Source: Daucus carota subsp. sativus | Lineage: Eukaryota; Streptophyta; Magnoliopsida; Apiales; Apiaceae | DNA: 64,000 bases | Direction of reading: 5' to 3' | Assembly (NCBI RefSeq): GCF_001625215.2 | Contig: NC_030382.2 | Coordinates: 47,519,364-47,583,363 of the forward strand | Shown: positions 34,444 to 51,570 of the stretch, one piece after another | How positions within the stretch are numbered: position 1 is the stretch's first letter | How the letters are laid out: each line of letters opens with the position of its first letter | Position numbers and translations under genes: made by a program | Notes under the pieces: model-generated | Told to the model about the DNA's origin: nothing | Databases searched by the model: none | The model's input: the letters and a program-made list of their open reading frames with translations, nothing else

Positions 34444-37197
34444 ATGGAGAAAGAAGGGCCGATATTCAGAGATATCAGGCGATACTACTGTGAATATTGT
34501 GGTATTTGTCGGTCTAAGAAGTCTCTCATCTCCTCTCATGTATTATCGCACCACCAGGTATGATAATTTATTGTCATCTCTGTATCATAAATTTTAGCTG
34601 TCAAGCTGTGTGATGCATACTAAGATACAACTTCTTAGAAAATAATATATATACAAATTGGCATACAGTTAAAAATACCATTTACATCAAATTAGCTATA
34701 TTTTTAACATGTAAATATGTAGTTATTTTGTATTGGATTCCCTGAAGGTCGATTTCATGAGAATACATATCCACTGATTCTTATATGTGATTTTCTGTTT
34801 ATTAGGATAAGGTGAATGAAATAAAGGCAGATGATAATGGGGAAAAAGAGGGGTTAAAGTCTAATTTTTGTGATGATTGTGGCCTGAGTTTCCGAAAGCC
34901 TGCTCACTTGAAACAACACGTGCAAAGCCATTCCCTTGAGGTACGACTTTTAACCTTGTTAATATACACACTACCATCTCGACTGTGGTAGTTAGTTCGT
35001 ATAATATTATTCATAGACATGGTAATACCCATTTATGTATGTACATCTTGAATTGGTCACAATTATTATAAGTTTGTGTATCTTTCTTGATTATTAGGAA
35101 ACACTAGCAGCATTTAAAAGAAAAAACTTTGTCTATTGAAAGTTGAGGCTAAAAAGAATGGATCTTACTATTTTCAATTACCTTGATTGGATTCAAGTAA
35201 GATCTTATTCTTTGCCAATAATCATGTTTGCAGCCTACTTGTCTATGCCTTGTATCTCTATATTATTTAAATTAGTAGGCCTAGAACATTTTTTGATGGC
35301 ACTGCTTTGGTCTTATGTTCCATAGTTACATCAGTTAAGAGGGATGCTTCTTGCAGGGTTACATGTTTCTTCAACTAGTCACAAATGGAAATAAATTAGA
35401 TGTACGCGTGAAGCACTGGATCCCACAGAAGAACTCCAAAATGCGAGAGGCATCATTGTTTACCTTGAATGGATTAGTATCAGGTAGGGGGACCTCCTGA
35501 GAAGTTCCATCAAGTGAGCCTCACTCACGCGCAGTTTTTTTCCTTTGAGGTGTGAATGACTTTTGTTAATTTAGAATTGTTAACATATATGAATCTTGCA
35601 GGCTTATAAGTTGCTTTGAGTAACATAAATAATTCAAATGTTCCGTGTGAAGCATTGGATCCCATAGAAGAACTCCAAAATGCGAGAGGCATCAAAATCA
35701 ACCTTGAATGGATTAGTATCAGGTAGGGGGACCTCCTGAGAAGCTCCATTAGGTGAGCCTCAATCACGCTCTGGTTAAGATTTGAGGTTTGGATGACTAT
35801 TCTTTGTTTATGTAGAAATGTTGTGTTCAAGTTACACTGAAGGCTAAAGTTATTGTTAGTGATTTGATAACTTTGTATTGCAGAGACCATTTACGTGTCC
35901 AATAGATGATTGCAATTCCAGATACACGAGGAAGGACCATTTGAACCGTCACCTTCTGCAACACCAAGGGAAACTTTTTACATGTCCTTCCACGTACTGC
36001 AACCGCAGATTTTCAAATCAAGGTAACATGAAGAGGCATGTAAAGAAATTCCACAAAGATTCTTTGCCTATTAAAGTTGATGCTCCAAAAGAACATATAT
36101 GTCCAGAACCTGGGTGCGGGAAGGTTTTTAAGTATGCATCAAAATTGAAAAAACATGAAGATTCACATGGTAATACTTCTGCTTAGTCTTCTTCTCTCTC
36201 TCTAAACTATAGTAGTGGGTATATTATCGAATTCTCGGGCATCACTGTACCACTGTGCCTATATATTGCAGTTCTTTTTAGTTTCTTTCTGTTTGTTTGG
36301 AATGTGCTACTGAGGGACCCATTCTATTTGCAGTCAAGTTAGAGTCGACGGAAGCATATTGTACTGATCCTGGATGTATGAAATATTTTACCAATGAGCA
36401 GTGCTTAAAGGCTCATATTCAGTCTTGCCACAGGCACATTACTTGTGAGTTTTGTGGAACAAAGCAGCTGAAAAAGAACATCAAGCGGCACCTACTTACA
36501 CACGATGTTAAGCCTCCATCTGAGAGGATGAAATGCAGCTTTAATGATTGTCTACACACCTTCTCATCTGTAAGACAACTTACCATGTTAATATTACATA
36601 TTTTTTGTTTTGCTGCATCATATTGGTATTTCGTTTACTGTAGATCATATGTGCTCTGATCGAAAGCTAACTTGCTGAGAGAATAATATAGAGCAACTTT
36701 CTTTTATCAAGTGTGATCTGTCAAAATTTGTGACTAGGTCTGACTCCAGTAAATTATACTTTGTTATTCTTTATCGCAGAAATCAAACCTCAATCAACAC
36801 ATAAAAGCTGTGCATTTGCAACAACGACCTTTTGTCTGTAGCATCCATGGGTGTGGCATGAGATTTACGTTTAAACATGTTAAAGACAAACACGAAAAAT
36901 CTGGATGCCATCTTTACACTCAAGTACGTTTGTCGCTACTTTTTACTTGGCACCTGTTTGAATAAGTTCATGCAAAAAATGGGTACGATATGAATGTTGA
37001 AATGGTGTTTGTGTTTGTTTACTGTTCAGGGTGATTTTGTAGAAACTGATGAGCAGTTTCGATCTCGTCCCAGGGGTGGAAGGAAAAGGGTGTGTCCAAG
37101 TATAGAGACTTTTACAAGAAAGAGAGTAGTTCTGCCATCATCTGAATCAGCTTCCATTATAGATCAAGGACCTGATTACAACTCATGGTTGCTTTAA
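34444..37197 (+). CDS. TFIIIA: Transcription factor IIIA (nine C2H2 zinc fingers)
   Basis: Coding exons for the full-length form: 34444-34557, 34806-34940, 35884-36169, 36334-36569, 36780-36923 and 37030-37197; 360 aa. It binds the internal control region of 5S rRNA genes to start pol III transcription, and it also binds 5S rRNA. Nine fingers are visible: YYCEYC...HH, NFCDDC...[11 protein letters not shown]...[12 protein letters not shown]...[12 protein letters not shown]...[12 protein letters not shown]...SCH, ITCEFC...[11 protein letters not shown]...AVH and FVCSIHGC...SGCH. The tail [17 protein letters not shown] is the conserved plant C-terminal motif, rich in basic residues. The spacer between fingers 4 and 5 is short (about 13 residues), unlike the long one I recall in Arabidopsis. 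The intron 34941-35883 contains two 5S rRNA-mimic cassettes; including either would introduce a premature stop. The full-length reading requires skipping both. Confidence 0.96.
35357..35534 (+). promoter_or_regulatory. P5SM copy 1: 5S rRNA-mimic cassette exon of TFIIIA
   Basis: An acceptor CTTCTTGCAG ends at 35356. The 5S-like core (about 35405-35531) contains AAGCACTGGATCCCA, AGAACTCC, GCGAGAG and GGGGGACCTCCTGAGAAG, which follow plant 5S rRNA in order. The ends CGCGTGA (35405-35411) and TCACGCG (35525-35531) can form the closing helix. A donor CAG|GTAGGG lies inside the mimic at 35483/35484, so the candidate exon is 35357-35483 (127 nt). It stays open in frame but shifts phase, and translation would then stop early in the next coding exon. 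In known plants this exon is controlled by ribosomal protein L5 binding. Confidence 0.88.
35602..35775 (+). promoter_or_regulatory. P5SM copy 2: second 5S rRNA-mimic cassette, tandem duplicate
   Basis: An acceptor GAATCTTGCAG ends at 35601. The core (about 35645-35769) repeats copy 1 at roughly 90% identity (about a dozen differences over 124 nt by eye). It includes AAGCATTGGATCCCA, AGAACTCC, GCGAGAG and GACCTCCTGAGAAG. The closing helix is GTGTGA (35645-35650) with TCACGC (35764-35769), one G-U pair. The donor CAG|GTAGGG lies at 35722/35723, giving a 121-nt candidate exon. An in-frame TGA occurs at 35617-35619 if it is spliced after coding exon 2. All parts of a working mimic appear to be kept. 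Confidence 0.87.
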
Positions 37198-38071: not shown

Positions 38072-39310
38072 TTAGAATCTAAATTCATTTTCATCTGGAA
38101 CATAGAAATCGAACTTGACATCAATGGACTCAGAAGTTTCACCAGAGTCTTTGTATTCAATATTTGTGATTGTACCGGTTTCATCATCTTCTTGATATTG
38201 TGGTTTTACTCGTCGTACAGGCACTGTAACAGAATAAATGGTTCCAAGTGCTGCATCGGTAGAAACACTCAGCTCAACTTTATCCTGGGACTCAATTTCT
38301 ACAAACTCTGATAGGGCCCCTACTATATTGCCCACTATTTTTTGTTTTGCTTCATTACTAACTGCACATCGATCAGAGAAAAGAATCATTTGCAAGCGCT
38401 GCTTAGCAATATTCGCATTAGACTTCCTCTTGGATGCAGGCGATGGGAAGATTAGCTTCCACGCCAGGTTTAAACGTTCAAAGAAACTCATGTTTACGGC
38501 ATTGAGTAAAAAGTTCTCAGCCTCTTGACTGATGGAACTTGAGGACAACTCATATTCACCCCCAGTATCAGAATATTGTTTAGCATTGCAACGGACATTA
38601 TGACAGTCAAAACGGTGGCACCTATAAGTGCCCCCAGAATTACTCAACCCTCCATCCACAAAACCAGTATATTCCACCTGTAAATCGGCATATACATGAA
38701 TTCATACAGCAAAGACGCGAAGCTCATATAAAATTTGTGACCTTCATATTGTGTTCATAACAAACCATACTAACAAGCCTTAGCCATAAATCCTATCTCT
38801 CACGAAGCACTACATCCACACAAGTACCATTCTTTTAGTTTAGGCATATGCGTCCTAATTAATTCGACAGTGGAATTAGGATTCCATAGAAGCCGCGGCC
38901 AAAATAATCATAATATCAGTAACAAAATTTCCCTCTAACATATCGCATTCTAACCGGGTCGAGACTTCAGTCTAGGCGACATATATTTGGCCTAGTTCCT
39001 CCAGTGGATGAAACAACCAGCTTGAAACACATGGCCATACTACTAAAAGAACAAATTTCGATAACATAATCCACATAAGATTAACATGATACCATCTGCT
39101 AACTAATCAGAAGATCCTTCTAAATTTTTCATCATCATGTTCATTGCAATGGAATTCAATTATTCAAGTCTTTCAACTACATAATAATAATACACAAAAG
39201 TGAATATAAAACATAGTATATACCTTGGAGGAGTGCAAATAGTTGCCAACGCAGCTGGACGGGTAAGCGCGTGATGATGCAGAGACCAAAATATTTACAG
39301 ACATCGCCAT
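38072..39310 (-). CDS. MINE1: MinE1, plastid-division site regulator (ARC12 type)
   Basis: Two exons, 39310-39224 and 38677-38072; 230 aa. It is the chloroplast form of bacterial MinE. It works with MinD at the inner envelope to confine the FtsZ ring to mid-plastid. The N-terminus (MAMSVNILVSASSRAYPSS) is a transit peptide. The MinE domain spans about 75-180: NAVNMSFFERLNLAWKLIFP (MinD-contact region), then SNANIAKQRLQMILFSDR, KIVGNIVGALSEFVEIES and TIYSVTVPVRRVKP. The plant-specific C-terminal tail (GTITNIEYKDSGE, DVKFDFYVP) is present. A second in-frame ATG is the third codon, so either start gives nearly the same product. Length and order match the Arabidopsis protein. Confidence 0.96.
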
Positions 39311-39615
39311 TTTCTCTCTCTTTATCTTTGCTTGAAATTGTTGCAGCCATTTATTTAGTTTCGTGTTACGGCCCTATTATATGTTTTTCACAACGCGGCC
39401 CAGTTATCAAATTTGAACCCAGCCCAAAGGGGAAGCGTCTAAAATATTCTTATCAAATTATTTTAGATGTGACCACTCAAATTAATTTTTATATGTGACA
39501 TTCGGAACCAAAGAAGAGATTTTTTAATATGCCATGGCCTGCCACCGACCTTCATTGGCTCCTGGTTAGATATTTTAATTCTATTTTGATGGTTAAACAA
39601 TGGAAGATAATGCTA

Positions 39616-39673
39616 TATTGTACTCCGCGTTGTGCCGGTTTGGCAAAAAACCGGCACAATGCGGAGTACAATA
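39616..39673. repeat. Near-perfect 26-bp inverted repeat with 6-nt loop
   Basis: 39616-39641 pairs with 39648-39673 around the loop GGCAAA. The only exception is one position that would be G-U in RNA. Arms read TATTGTACTCCGCG then TTGTGCCGGTTT. TA occurs at both outer edges, so it may be a tiny mariner-like foldback or the remains of one. It lies about 300 bp upstream of MinE1. Confidence 0.9.
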
Positions 39674-42600
39674 AACACAAATAAGATTCTTTTCAAAAAG
39701 AAAAATGTATTTATATCTTTAAATACAAATAATTAAAAATATATTTCACATTTTTTATTTAACAAAGTTTTTTTTTCAACACAAATAATTAAAGTTTTTT
39801 TTATTTAACAAAGTTAGATATTTGTTTTTAAAAAAATATGAGAATAAGATAAGATAAACATCATTATTTGTGAAATGTGCCACTCACTTCATTTTGATAT
39901 GGATACAGGCTTAAACGGGTTTGCAAAAAATTGTATAAACATATCAAAAAGAAATGGTTAAGACGATGTAATCAATTTATATTTAATTAATATGAAAATG
40001 TGAATAAAAATATCGGATGAATTTTTATTTTTTTGAAAAAAAAAACAAATATCGGATGAACTTAATTTTATGATATAAAATATTATTACTTAACAAAAAG
40101 TGAAATGTAAAAATCGATACGAATCGTAGAGAAAAAGAATACGAGAGAGAGAGAGAAGAGATTTGAATTTTCTGTTCTCGCATTTTTGAGATACATGAGC
40201 ATATCGGCATTCAGTCGAGATGATAAACGATTAAACGTTAACCATCAAGAGTCCCGGCATGATTGATATAGTTTAACCACCCTATGACGCGATTGTCAAT
40301 AAAGATTAAAATATCTTGTTTTTTGTCCGGTAAAAGTATTATAAGTAAGAAAAATCACATGGAATATGTAAAATGAAAAATCTCGAAGATTTTTTTTTTC
40401 ATTTTTTTTACTGTCGGAATCTGCGGCCGCTGCCTTTCGGATGCGCACTGAGTAAATAAAAACAACCGAGAGTACTAACTACGCTTTGCTTGTATAATTT
40501 AACTGCATCAACAATACATGACCTATAAGATTAATCCCCCGTCTGAATATTTTAATCGGATGAACATACTGTGTAGTACAGAAATATAAACTAAGAACAG
40601 CCAAAAAAAATTGAACATAAGTTTTTGTATCGATGGATATATCAAAGTCACTTAAAATCCCGTTTTACAAAACCTAATTTGCGACAACATTTTTCAGAAT
40701 GTTGTACGTATCTACGAAATCGTGTACGGAAAAGTCAACTATAAGATATTTGTTTATAGAAATTGTTCAATATTCGGCGATTATTCGGCGATTTAGCCCT
40801 TAGCAAACTATCCGTTCGGCATAACGTAATACACAAAGTGGTAAGAAATCCAAGGATTGTAAAAGCTATTTGCAAACCTTAATAGGGGACAGATGCGGAA
40901 ACTGATAGTATATGCAACAGAGTACTTGGATAAAGCAAAATGTGAACTACTTTTCTGGTTAAAAGGACTGGTAATACATGAGTGAGGAAAAACTTTGATA
41001 ACCGTGCCAGGATTAACACGAGAAACTCTATGCTTCGTAGATTCTTTCATGTGCTACCGAGGACCACATGGACAAAGGGTATTTTCGTCATACCATTATA
41101 AATGATTTTGAAGGCTGTTTCTGTAATTTTAGATTGGGTTTTTCTAGTGTGTGTCCATACCAACTATTTTTGTTGAGGTGGAGTACTTTTATTGATCATA
41201 ATTTTAGTGCATATGCAGAGGATCATGAATCTGTGTTACTAGTTTTTAGCTGCATAACTTAACCATGATGATTTTTTCGCAACCCTAGTCCATAGGATGG
41301 TATTGGTGGAACCACATAGGGATTGGAAACCCACCTTTATTGTTCAAATTTACCCGTGACAAATTTCAGTACCTTTTAATTTCTGAATTAGAGTACAATT
41401 TTGATTGCATTCTTTTAACTTTTAAATTATATTAATACACAGTAAAATAACAGTTTAAATTATACTCTAAGATGGTACCCGGCATTGGTATATTTTCGGG
41501 TTATTAGTGGCTCCGTCATAAAGATGTATACATTCATTATTTGCGCGTATTATGAGGTTTTATAAAATATAATTTCATTATGTTTTTAATTTTTTGCGTA
41601 AAAGTTAAAATATTATACTTTTGTTTAGGAAAAAATAGAAAAATTATGAAACTATACTTTAAATGAGTCTTAAAAAAAGTGTCAAAAATTAGCATATACA
41701 ATTTCATTCATAGGGAGGGAGTATTTTTTTTATTACCAAAACGAGATCATTTATCTTTATAATATAATTTATGAGCTAAGTTGAATCTGAATCTGCTTTT
41801 TTTTTTTCAGGAGATATGATTGAATTAACTTGAACAGGATAAATTTGTTTAAAATATTAGACAAATTTAATGTTGATTTATGTTCTGTGCAAATGGATTG
41901 TATGGAATTACTACTCTCTAGTCTCTTGATACGATAATGGCGTATTCCTTCATGTCTATTATATATGACATTTGATTTTTAGATGTAATTATTAAGTTTT
42001 GATCCGATATTTAAAATTGATATTTTTAAATTTTCTTTTCTAGATAAAAAATATTTATGTCATATTTTTATTCAAAAAAATTGCAAAAAATTAATAATTA
42101 TTATATTATCAAAACACCTAAAAACGTGTAAAAAGTCAAACGTGCAACACATATACTCGTAACTGCTTTAACAAATGGGCATGACCCACCAACAAATCAA
42201 ACTACAGTCTACATACAAGGTTGATTTGCTGGACATGCCACGTGCACCAATAATGTAGCTACTCTGTCGTATGATCTTGACATAAATTACACCCAACAGT
42301 GTCACAAACACCATAACATCATCATATGTATGATGTATGGCTCAACTTGGAAGTGTACATATACAGTGTATTACCAATAAATTATCAATTTAAGAAAGAT
42401 GGTAACAATTAAAATTCAATTGCACTCTGGAGTTAGAGTACTATAATCCTGAATTACATAATAGCAGAAAGAAATAAAAATTACTGCATACATTTGAGTA
42501 GAAAGCTACAAGCAGATATTATAGAATATATGAATACAGACAACAGAAAATCCGATTCCACCATGGCCCCACTAGTCTGGAACCTACTTGCAAGAGAATC

Positions 42601-47789: not shown

Positions 47790-50700
47790 ATGGGAACCAA
47801 AGTGCACTGTAAAAGCCACACGCCGGGATATTACTCCATGACAGATATGAATGAGGATTCAAATAGTAGCAGTTGGTCCCCATATTACGGGGATAAAAAT
47901 TTGCTGAATGGGCAGTACTATAATGGCATGTTGCAGAAGACGGTAAGAGATGAATATACAGGATATGAGAAGGATGTATTAAGACAGAAGATGATTGAGC
48001 ATGACATGATATTCAAAAATCAGGTATATGCCTTGTCACACATCTGCAGCATTCCCTGTTTACTATTCATGTGCTACATATGAATCACCTGTCCACAGAT
48101 TCAGTTAAGGTATTTAATTAATTGGTATCCTGTTATTCAGGTATATGAACTTCACCGCCTATATAAAGTGCAAAGGGAAATGATGGAAGAAGCCAAAAGG
48201 AAGGAACTATATAAGCAGCAGAGATCAATTGAGACGTCATCGTCATCAAGCTTCTTACCATCTCAAATTCCATCCGATGAAGTTAGGAAATGGCAGTCAC
48301 CTAGCTTTCCATTAGCCAACTCTGGTGGCGTCAGACCCTCCATTATGGGATCTGAAGTCATTGATTCACCTTCCAGTTGGATGAAAGGACAAAACAATCA
48401 AGTCGATCTAGTTTCATACCAGAACAGAGGTGATCTGAAGGAGTCTGCCTTTCTGGACTCTAGACCCTCTAAGGTCAGGAAAACATTGTTTGATCTTCAA
48501 ATTCCAGCTGATGAATACATTGTTACAGAAGAAGAGGAACAGTTTCGAGACATTAAGATGTCTGATACTTCAGTTTATCCACTAGAAGGAAACCACAGAC
48601 TTGCATTGGGAAGTAGTATAAATAAATATCCTGGTGGTGGGAAGACCAATGACATAAGAGATACTTCATCTGGTTCATGTATAAAGAGATCTCATCTCTT
48701 GGCTGATCTAAATGAGCCAATTCAGGCCGAGGAAGGCAATTCTCCGAAATCTGTTAAATTTTCTGGTCGTTCTGTGTGCCATGAGAATACTAGAGGCCTG
48801 GATATGTCTGCTAAACCAAAGTCACAATTTGTGGATTTAACCCAAGATTTTTTCCAGAAGTCTCAGTGCGGAAGTAGTAATGGGAATGTTAGCAATTTAT
48901 CTGAAACAAATAAAGGGGCCAGGAGAGGTTGGTTATCTTATATGTATGAAGGAGGTAAGAATCATCGTCACTCTTCCTCTCTATTCTTTCAAAACACTTG
49001 CTCTTTCTTTTAATGTCCCTTATTTGTTGGTTTATTTACTCGCAAATATTGCCTGTGACTGTCCATCCCTTCAAGAAATAAAAAATCAGGAAGATACTTG
49101 TAGCTAGTTAGAATATCTGTTCAAGTTCTATAAAAAGAAATCTAAAGTTTTGGTGGCTGTCCCAGTTCTTATACATAACTTTGAACTTATATGATATTGG
49201 TTTCTTGTTTGCGAGAAATGGACATATACAGTATAGGATATAAAGAGTGAATTAAATTACTTTATTGACCATTACCAGAAATATGAAATTCTAGCAGGTC
49301 AATTTATGTGCTATTAATCAAATTAGAAGAACAGCAAGTCTCTATTAGAAAGAGTCAACATATATAGGTGTAGCCACACTATCTGGATTTAATTTTCTCT
49401 TCATGTTCAGTTGTCTGTCATCATATCTGAATATTTAAACTATACAGGGAACTGTGGAATTGATGCCAATTGTATTCCTAAATTTCACCAATCAGATAAG
49501 TTGCCTTCAACTTCCCAGCAAACATCATTTATTGTTGGCAAGTCTAAACAATATCAGGGAATTCTTCCACCTGATTCCAGGATGGACGGACCATGGACAG
49601 AGAGAAATCGTGGTAATGAGTTTTCTAACAGAAGTCACGACCATTCTATCTACAACCAGCCAGATTCAGTTGCGACTTCCCATGTTTCCAATCCCTACCC
49701 TTGGTATAATTCCTCGGATGCAGCCAATTCTTGGTCTCGCACCGTCACATCTTGGGGAAAACCTAATCCTAGTTTGACGCAGAAATTGACGTCGTTGCAC
49801 TCAAGGCCGTCTGTTGTATTATCTGAAAACTCGAGTAGGGAAATAAACGTTGGCCCTAGCTTGAATACAGTATTTGGGAGCAAACTTCCTGTTCAGAATG
49901 GATTTTGCCAAGGCTCTTCATTGGTTTCCAAGGAACCTTCAGCAACTTTATCCTCATTTGGTTATAATAATAATAACAATAATCTGAAACGTGATGAGAT
50001 TGATATTGCAGCATCAAGCCACTTAACAAGCCATGCTTCTAAAAACATCTTTAAGGGCTTGAATGTGGTGGATTCAAAGTCTGGAAAGGATTTGGACTTG
50101 AATGTGGTTCTTTCATGTGATTCATTGAACGAGGAACCCCTACCTCAAGATATTGAGATTGTTGATGGAAAAAGGAAGGATAAATACCATTCTACAGCTG
50201 TGTCATGGTTGAGAGAGAAGCCAGTGTATGATGATGTATCCCCTATAACAAGGAAAGACTTTGAATCGGGTTTGTTGCAGCCTTCGCGTGATCTGTTGCT
50301 TATAGGGGAAACTGTAAAAGACCCTAATCCTCTACCTATTCAGAATGTTTCCGCTGTTTTAAGTAGTTGTGATGTTAGGGTGAAGAGGGAGTCGGACTGT
50401 TTAAGCAATGGGAAATTACTTGGATTTCCCATATTTGGAAAAATTGGCATCTCAAAAAATGACTCTGCATCTACATCTGCATCAATTCAAAGTTATCACC
50501 CCGATGGCATAAACACAAAAAATAAAGGGAAACATAGAGGGTTTGATATGAATGTAGCTTGTGATTCAATGGATACTGAGTTTGATAAACCTATTGTAGC
50601 AGAAGCTATTTCAGCCGAGAAGCTAATGGATACAAAATGCAACAACTTTAGAAACATTGATTTGAACTCCTGTGTTAGTGAGGATGAAGATATATTAGAC

Positions 50701-51570
50701 TCTTCTGTTGCAAGCACCAGTGGGAAGAAGATTGCATTTGAGATAGATCTGGAAGCGCCTGTTGTTCTGGAGGCAGTGGAGGCTCTTTCACCTACAAAAG
50801 AACAAAAACAACACGAGGTGTCCTTGCAATCACCTGAGGAAACTGAGAAGCAACAAGATGAAGTAGTTAGAAGTGCAGCAGAGGCAATACTTGCCATTTC
50901 TTATAGTCAGGTTCCTTGTATGGATCCTTCCGAATTGCCAGATCCCCTCAAATGGTTTGCAGATGTAATTTCTGCTTCAGCAGACGAAGTTGAGATGAGG
51001 CCTCAAAAAGATTCTGAAGGCAGAAACGGTAGAGAAACTGAGACGCCAAGGGAGTTGGATGAATACGAGGCCATGACATTGCAACTGACAGAGACTCCGG
51101 AAGAAGACTACATGCCTGAGCCCTTTGTACCTGAAATCCTCAACTTGGAAGATGTAGGCACCGCTTTGTTACCGGGGCGACCCCGAAGAGGCCCGGCAAG
51201 GAGAGGGAGGATGAGAAAGGACTTCCAGAGGGATATCCTTCCAGGCCTCGTTTCTTTGTCAAGGCACGAGGTTACAGAAGATCTTCAGACATTTGGAGGA
51301 CTGATGAGAGCTACTGGTCATCAATGGAATGGAGGAATGACAAGAAGGAACGGCACCAGAAGCGGTGCTGCAAGAGGAAGGAGACGGTGCGCGGTTGAGC
51401 CCCCCCCTGCCATGGTAGTAGCTCCAGTCTGCAGTCCACCAATGCAGAACTTTAATAGTATCCAGTTGGGAGTAGAGGATAGAAGCTTAGCTGGGTGGGG
51501 AAAGACAACTAGACGTGCTCGTGGACAAAGAACTGCTGCAGGTAATAATCTTGCTGTTCCAATTACATAA
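47790..51570 (+). CDS. DUF863 family protein (1,056 aa)
   Basis: Coding exons 47790-48023, 48141-48954 and 49448-51570; the phases agree. The ATG follows an acceptor (TTAGCAG) at 47787, so at least one 5'UTR intron lies between the CT-rich leader (about 46200-46540) and the start. The protein is hydrophilic and Ser/Asn-rich with no membrane span. The N-terminal part has a conserved heptad-like stretch (LRQKMIEHDMIFKNQVYELHRLYKVQREMMEE). The C-terminal DUF863 signature includes AAEAILAIS, MDPSELPDPLKWFADVIS, EAMTLQLTETPEEDYMPEPFVPE, LLPGRPRRGPARRGR and FQRDILPGLVSLSRHEVTEDLQTFGG, then an Arg/Gly-rich tail. DLN-type motifs (LADLNEP, KDLDLNV, NIDLNS) resemble EAR repression motifs. It is probably nuclear; the biochemical role is unknown. 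Confidence 0.93.

Follow-up and report, generated by a model that had tools for sequence, protein, structure and literature searches.

The window that we analyzed is a 64,000-nucleotide stretch of the carrot genome (C2:47519364–47583363; our genome-wide searches covered 441,086,747 bases in 11 contigs), and it contains a TFIIIA gene on the + strand at 34444–37197. As modeled with GT-AG introns, the gene encodes a 360-amino-acid product in coding exon 1 (34444–34557), coding exon 2 (34806–34940), which ends after zinc finger 2, coding exon 4 (35884–36169), which encodes fingers 3–5 and had been counted as coding exon 3 in a preliminary description of this DNA, and coding exons 5 (36334–36569), 6 (36780–36923) and 7 (37030–37197, stop included). 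The preliminary description had named the gene TFIIIA, an identification supported by the 360-amino-acid model, by the C2H2 fingers that Pfam detected in the product (nine when counted by eye), and by the presence, among its 131 PDB sequence matches, of the TFIIIA chains of Xenopus (1tf6, query residues 61–216) and yeast (8ffz, query residues 13–272). The top PDB match was Aart, a designed finger protein, because finger repeats match widely. Elsewhere in the window, an open frame at 977–1633 carries many Gln/Gly repeats (of the GSQQGQGQ type), and a near-perfect inverted repeat at 39610–39681, which several miRNA models match on both strands without reaching their cut-offs, resembles a small MITE-type hairpin.

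The 943-nt intron that follows exon 2 holds two cassettes, 3a and 3b, 118 nt apart and both between the finger-2 and finger-3 exons, which is where the P5SM exon of plant TFIIIA is located. Through P5SM, TFIIIA output is considered to be coupled to free L5 and, by way of L5, to the supply of ribosomes. Splice sites and the gene model delimited poison exon 3a (127 nt, 35357–35483) and poison exon 3b (121 nt, 35602–35722), both on the + strand, each preceded by the identical acceptor octamer tcttgcag (ending just before 35357 and 35602) and followed by the identical donor TATCAG/gtaggggg (just after 35483 and 35722), with the GTAGGG of each donor (35484–35489 and 35723–35728) lying within a predicted helix IV-like stem. 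The loop-C string AGAACTCC is unbroken in both. From repeat pairs and from alignment of 3a, 3b and the copy in the second TFIIIA gene of this genome (on C9, described below), we delimited a tandem unit of ~245 bp, of which the first copy (3a plus flanks) occupies 35334–35578, with approximate edges, and the second (3b plus flanks) 35579–35815, with an approximate right edge. The repeat search paired 35405–35537 with 35644–35776 (89% over 133 nt, spacing 239) and 35334–35371 with 35579–35616 (74% over 38 nt, spacing 245). The two 5S-like copies that had been described previously, each with an acceptor, a closing helix and a CAG/GTAGGG donor, agree with these exact sites and with the model matches presented below, although one of the accompanying figures needs narrowing: an identity of about 90% applies to the cores, which match in 114 of 127 columns without gaps, and not to the whole unit, in that only 72 of 104 ungapped flank columns match.

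To judge the likeness to 5S rRNA we used the genome's own 5S sequence taken from an array on C8 (of 10,233 first-look candidates we scored 47, every one of which lay on C8, and the 10 that were retrieved were identical). Local scores against this sequence were 51 for 3a, 48 for 3b and 40 for the C9 copy, none of which was reached in 2000 simple shuffles each (top shuffles 44, 40 and 38, respectively), which marks all three as derived from 5S rRNA. The Rfam 5S_rRNA model (RF00001) gave 3a and 3b 13.9 and 13.3 bits (E 5.1 and 7.3), scores that are not significant and fall short of the gathering score of 38, as expected for a mimic rather than a 5S gene; no P5SM family was among the Rfam matches. 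We also built a covariance model, R2, which took its letters from a single sequence, the C9 copy (used twice as input), and its pairing scheme from the three-copy consensus, such that it is independent of 3a and 3b as regards sequence but not as regards structure. In a search of the window, the C9 TFIIIA region (L004) and L008, the only matches of R2 within the window at E≤10 were the cores of 3a (35402–35533, 108.3 bits) and 3b (35641–35772, 106.0 bits), both on the + strand and each running from closing helix to closing helix with the donor inside; the C9 sequence from which R2 was built gave 162.4, and 5S genes, of which five were matched, gave 17.0 each. The earlier concern that a covariance search might score only one copy was thus not borne out, and a genome-wide DNA search with the 3a core found three places at E≤0.001, which were 3a, 3b and the C9 copy. 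Exact pattern searches for the P5SM of other plants gave 0 matches in viral_contigs and genome_contigs, which are not collections of plant sequence. Farther upstream, 35173–35199 resembles the helix-V segment of C9 (score 33, 3/1000 shuffles), 3a (30, 9/1000) and 3b (26, 16/1000), with these frequencies uncorrected for the three queries, and is possibly a relic of a further P5SM copy. We rejected this segment as a third, decayed P5SM, its helix-V likeness being too weak and R2 finding nothing there at E≤10.

When compared with dinucleotide shuffles, the isolated cores had folding z scores of −3.48 (3a), −2.18 (3b) and −1.91 (C9), with 3/500, 15/500 and 21/500 shuffles, respectively, as stable as the core. 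Folded singly, the C2 cores were predicted to form a closing helix, a five-pair P3 and a helix IV-like arm with probability near 1, with 3b missing one closing pair and adopting another register in the lower helix V arm; in the C9 core the loop-C hairpin pairs were weak or absent. Judged on their own elements rather than against the published P5SM consensus, the predicted cores have the P5SM fold, with a closing helix, a loop-C hairpin and a helix IV/V arm across the donor, the outer helices being context-dependent. Indeed, when the whole intron was folded, local folds dominated and the closing helices were predicted with probabilities of 0.84–0.99 (3a) and 0.78–0.90 (3b). Limiting the pairing span to 150 or 200 nt left the outer helices of 3a at 0.00 or 0.02 and those of 3b at about 0.2 or 0.8, and at limits of 300 and 450 nt the closing helix was at 0.81–1.00 in 3a and at 0.78–0.90 and 0.49–0.57, respectively, in 3b. 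The helix IV-like arm that holds the donor stayed at 0.98–1.00 at all five span settings, and the C9 closing helix was not predicted in its whole intron at any of the five (≤0.01). Pairing swapped between the copies was a candidate that we rejected: although the swapped closing helix reached 0.82–0.96 and was better by 5 kcal/mol (−106.2 vs −101.2) when the two cores were folded without flanks, it fell to 0.02–0.06 once the exon start was included and to 0.00 in the whole intron. These predictions support two complete folds standing in series in one intron.

The same predictions bear on a reading that we consider unlikely, in which only one cassette works as an L5-responsive exon, whereas its partner is redundant, seldom included in the message and in slow decay. 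The loss of one closing pair in 3b and the presence there of a G-U where 3a has a C-G would fit a decaying second copy, and the abolition of the 3a outer helices at span limits of 150–200 nt, where those of 3b partly persist, would fit a decaying first one. Against it, the R2 scores of the two copies are nearly equal, and their donors and acceptor octamers are identical.

Isoform models showed that only the double-skipped message encodes the 360-amino-acid TFIIIA. Inclusion of 3a shifts the frame and leads to a stop 26 nt into exon 4, inclusion of 3b brings in its own in-frame TGA (nt 16–18 of the exon), inclusion of both leads to a stop within 3b, and a merged form that extends from the acceptor of 3a to the donor of 3b likewise has an early stop. 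Because the stops in these four of four inclusion forms lie 640, 769, 779 and 888 nt upstream of the last junction, all four are predicted to be unproductive. The two routes to a stop that had been proposed for 3a and 3b were therefore correct, and the isoform logic proposed with them (skip both, 3a, 3b, both) is supported at the level of sequence. An in-exon stop in the normal frame is found in 3b and in the C9 exon and not in 3a, a difference that lends some further weight to the reading with a single working cassette. Nonetheless, each copy has its own acceptor and donor and would introduce a premature stop on inclusion, and by sequence analysis it is confirmed that the TFIIIA intron carries two complete P5SM cassettes.

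The included forms of the C2 and C9 genes differ in what could be translated downstream of the stop. The longest later ATG frame in the three included C2 forms tested was 229 amino acids, starting inside finger 4, and that in the C9 gene was 339 amino acids, starting at finger 3, because exon-4 codon 4 (35893–35895) is ACG in C2 and ATG in C9. A seven-finger product, the origin of which is debated, has been linked to the included transcript in other plants (PMC6164485). Translation of such a product from an AUG may therefore be open to the C9 gene and closed to the C2 gene.

The C9 TFIIIA gene lies at 43.86 Mb, and both C2 neighbors that we searched have their best paralogue nearby: a 719-amino-acid frame at 49411–51570 (C9:43.79 Mb, 61%) and a 201-amino-acid frame at 38072–38677 (C9:43.82 Mb, 79%). 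The C9 block has the same order as on C2 and the same relative orientation, inverted. Ks between C2 and C9 is 0.561 for TFIIIA and 0.486 for the 719-amino-acid neighbor; a study of carrot collinear pairs gives a Ks peak of 0.551 ± 0.06 for the last tetraploidisation, 46–52 million years ago (PMC6995200). By gene order and divergence, the two TFIIIA genes are a genome-duplication pair. The C9 gene carries a single cassette of 116 nt, with an in-exon stop and with the acceptor octamer and donor as in C2. This cassette lacks AGAACTCC in its helix III/loop C-like hairpin owing to a 4-nt gap and substitutions, a loss that is derived because the genome's own 5S, 3a and 3b all have the string. In 5S, helix II and loop C are the parts that L5 is reported to bind (PMC6164485), and since the C9 copy is without the loop-C string, its sensor may bind L5 less well. 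The C9 protein also has a 58-amino-acid insert that arose through internal finger duplication. In C9 exon 4 (L004:3815–4274) these 58 residues are added between fingers 4 and 5, where they may change 5S binding, and one of the added fingers, inspected by eye, appears to have an incomplete set of zinc ligands. When the genome was searched with the exon-4 protein sequence, the four matches at E≤0.001 were the C2 gene, two adjacent halves on C9 and a fragment at C2:35.33 Mb; this fragment (C2:35333236–35333403) is exon-4-like over 56 residues with one stop and 55% identity, and is perhaps a piece of a pseudogene.

To date the tandem duplication we compared the three copies, all from one genome. 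Differences between 3a and 3b occupy 13 of 127 core positions (10%, no gaps) and 32 of 104 flank positions (31%, after 14 gapped columns were dropped; Fisher p = 1.1 × 10−4). Cores likewise differ less than flanks in the comparisons with C9 (21/122 vs 39/103 for 3a and 22/122 vs 37/103 for 3b). Over all compared sites, 3a and 3b differ at 45/231, 3a and C9 at 60/225, and 3b and C9 at 59/225, such that neither C2 copy is closer to C9 than to the other, which argues against a duplication that preceded the genome doubling, barring conversion or faster change in C9. Jukes–Cantor flank distances are 0.40 between 3a and 3b and 0.53 (3a) and 0.49 (3b) to C9, as point estimates. Because the 31% flank divergence is not far from that of the genome-duplication pair (Ks 0.56), the tandem duplication looks old, and it perhaps came somewhat after the genome doubling; a very rough age of ~38 million years follows from simple proportion, with few sites and an assumed clock. 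Given divergence of 10% in the cores and 31% in the flanks, we rejected a young duplication, subject to the caveat of gene conversion, and also rejected as unlikely an assembly artefact, which had been raised as a way in which the second copy might prove spurious.

The pattern of core substitutions suggests that the fold itself has been preserved. The predicted fold of 3a pairs 82 of 127 core positions, and only 4 of the 13 core differences fall on paired ones, of which 3 retain a G-U pair. When the same types of substitution were placed at random, the fold was kept as well in 2 of 400 trials (3a to 3b) and 1 of 400 (3b to 3a). No compensatory double change occurred among 41 pairs in the three sequences, and the evidence from the fold is therefore of avoidance rather than covariation. 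Taken with the slower divergence of the cores, these comparisons and fold predictions make both cores look constrained and the doubled sensor look maintained. The preliminary description had supposed the copies to be either under selection or young; selection is favored by the contrast between cores and flanks and by retention of the fold, and youth is not, although gene conversion may also have kept the cores alike. A dead copy of this age would be expected to drift like the flanks, which, unless conversion intervened, tells against one cassette being redundant.

Conversion, or a later duplication of the core only, would mean that we have over-read this constraint, an explanation to which we give very little credence. 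It would account for the drop in identity outside the core and for the number of core sites that 3a and 3b share against C9, which is 14, the two alternative patterns having 6 and 5. However, the smaller divergence of cores than of flanks is seen in the C2–C9 comparisons as well, for which conversion is a less likely cause, and the similarity extends in the register of one unit into both flanks.

On balance, we think that the gene probably has two L5-responsive P5SM poison exons in series that together impose AND logic for L5. By default, each cassette would be recognizable as an exon and would place a premature stop in the message; L5 in excess over 5S rRNA would bind each 5S-like fold across its donor and cause the exon to be skipped. 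Full-length TFIIIA would come only from pre-mRNA in which both exons were skipped, and because both skips are needed, the pair would form a two-input AND gate that reads a single signal, raising the amount of free L5 needed and cutting leakage of productive mRNA. That both copies respond to L5 in carrot, with AND logic, we infer by analogy with single P5SM exons of other plants, for which published work describes default retention, L5 binding, skipping and decay. An engineered P5SM cassette stayed in the message by default and was skipped when rice L5 was supplied; the model proposed by the authors has retention depend on a splice factor, which is displaced by L5 (PMC4538838). Binding of L5 to the mimic in TFIIIA pre-mRNA favored the nine-finger form (PMC6164485).

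Simple arithmetic for independent sensors of equal affinity in series gives a 2.41-fold higher half-maximal L5 and an effective Hill coefficient of 1.19. If the sensors are independent, the main consequence would thus be a higher threshold with little sharpening, and stronger sharpening would need cooperation between the copies; of the earlier suggestion that a doubled sensor could sharpen or shift the response, it is mostly the shift that survives this calculation. The slight steepening, together with the differing routes by which the inclusion isoforms reach their early stops, would also suit a reading in which both cassettes are used as independent poison exons that raise baseline unproductive splicing and leave the L5 response little changed, or that yield distinct isoforms. 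We regard this as improbable, since both copies have retained their 5S likeness, loop-C string and fold, which is more than a stop-carrying exon would require.

The reading with two L5-responsive exons can be extended, tentatively and with more doubt than conviction, to the history of the gene pair. After the last genome doubling, the C2 duplicate may have gained a second P5SM and become a high-threshold AND gate for free L5, with the C9 duplicate losing its loop-C string and gaining its 58-amino-acid insert, such that sensing and coding roles were divided. On this view the gene would hold a natural eukaryotic tandem RNA sensor, which would have persisted in its doubled form over tens of millions of years and would be expected across related Apiaceae.

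Among the papers listed in our literature searches, a set outside which the founding P5SM papers (Hammond 2009, Fu 2009, Barbazuk 2010) lie, no tandem P5SM was the subject of a title or of an abstract opening, and an earlier mention is possible. The carrot cassettes resemble the single-copy P5SM exon in their gene, their placement in the intron after the finger-2 exon, their donor-spanning 5S-like fold and their premature stop, and differ in that two stand in series: earlier reports describe one 5S-derived exon per TFIIIA gene (PMC8909551, PMC5568362) and TFIIIA as a single-copy gene (PMC6164485), whereas TFIIIA is present here as two genes, of which one has the doubled cassette. Another likeness for the arrangement may be the tandem 'pseudo-cooperative' riboswitches, such as tandem TPP riboswitches, which are presented as two complete, independent sensors of one signal (PMC9481103). 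By analogy, the TFIIIA pair, in which two predicted sensors for one signal follow each other ahead of a single coding sequence, may work like a tandem riboswitch without being a member of that class, since its ligand would be a protein (L5), its output exon skipping in nuclear pre-mRNA, and its host a plant. The poison exons of splicing-factor genes are similar in being conserved exons whose inclusion leads to a premature stop, and differ from the carrot exons in that the latter have an rRNA-mimicking fold for recognition and are doubled. Gene models and isoform tools that expect a single 5S exon could misread TFIIIA here. To our knowledge, most work on the effect of sensor number has used tandem riboswitches of bacteria, and the doubled sensor of the C2 gene, together with the altered single sensor of its C9 duplicate, offers a natural experiment on sensor number.
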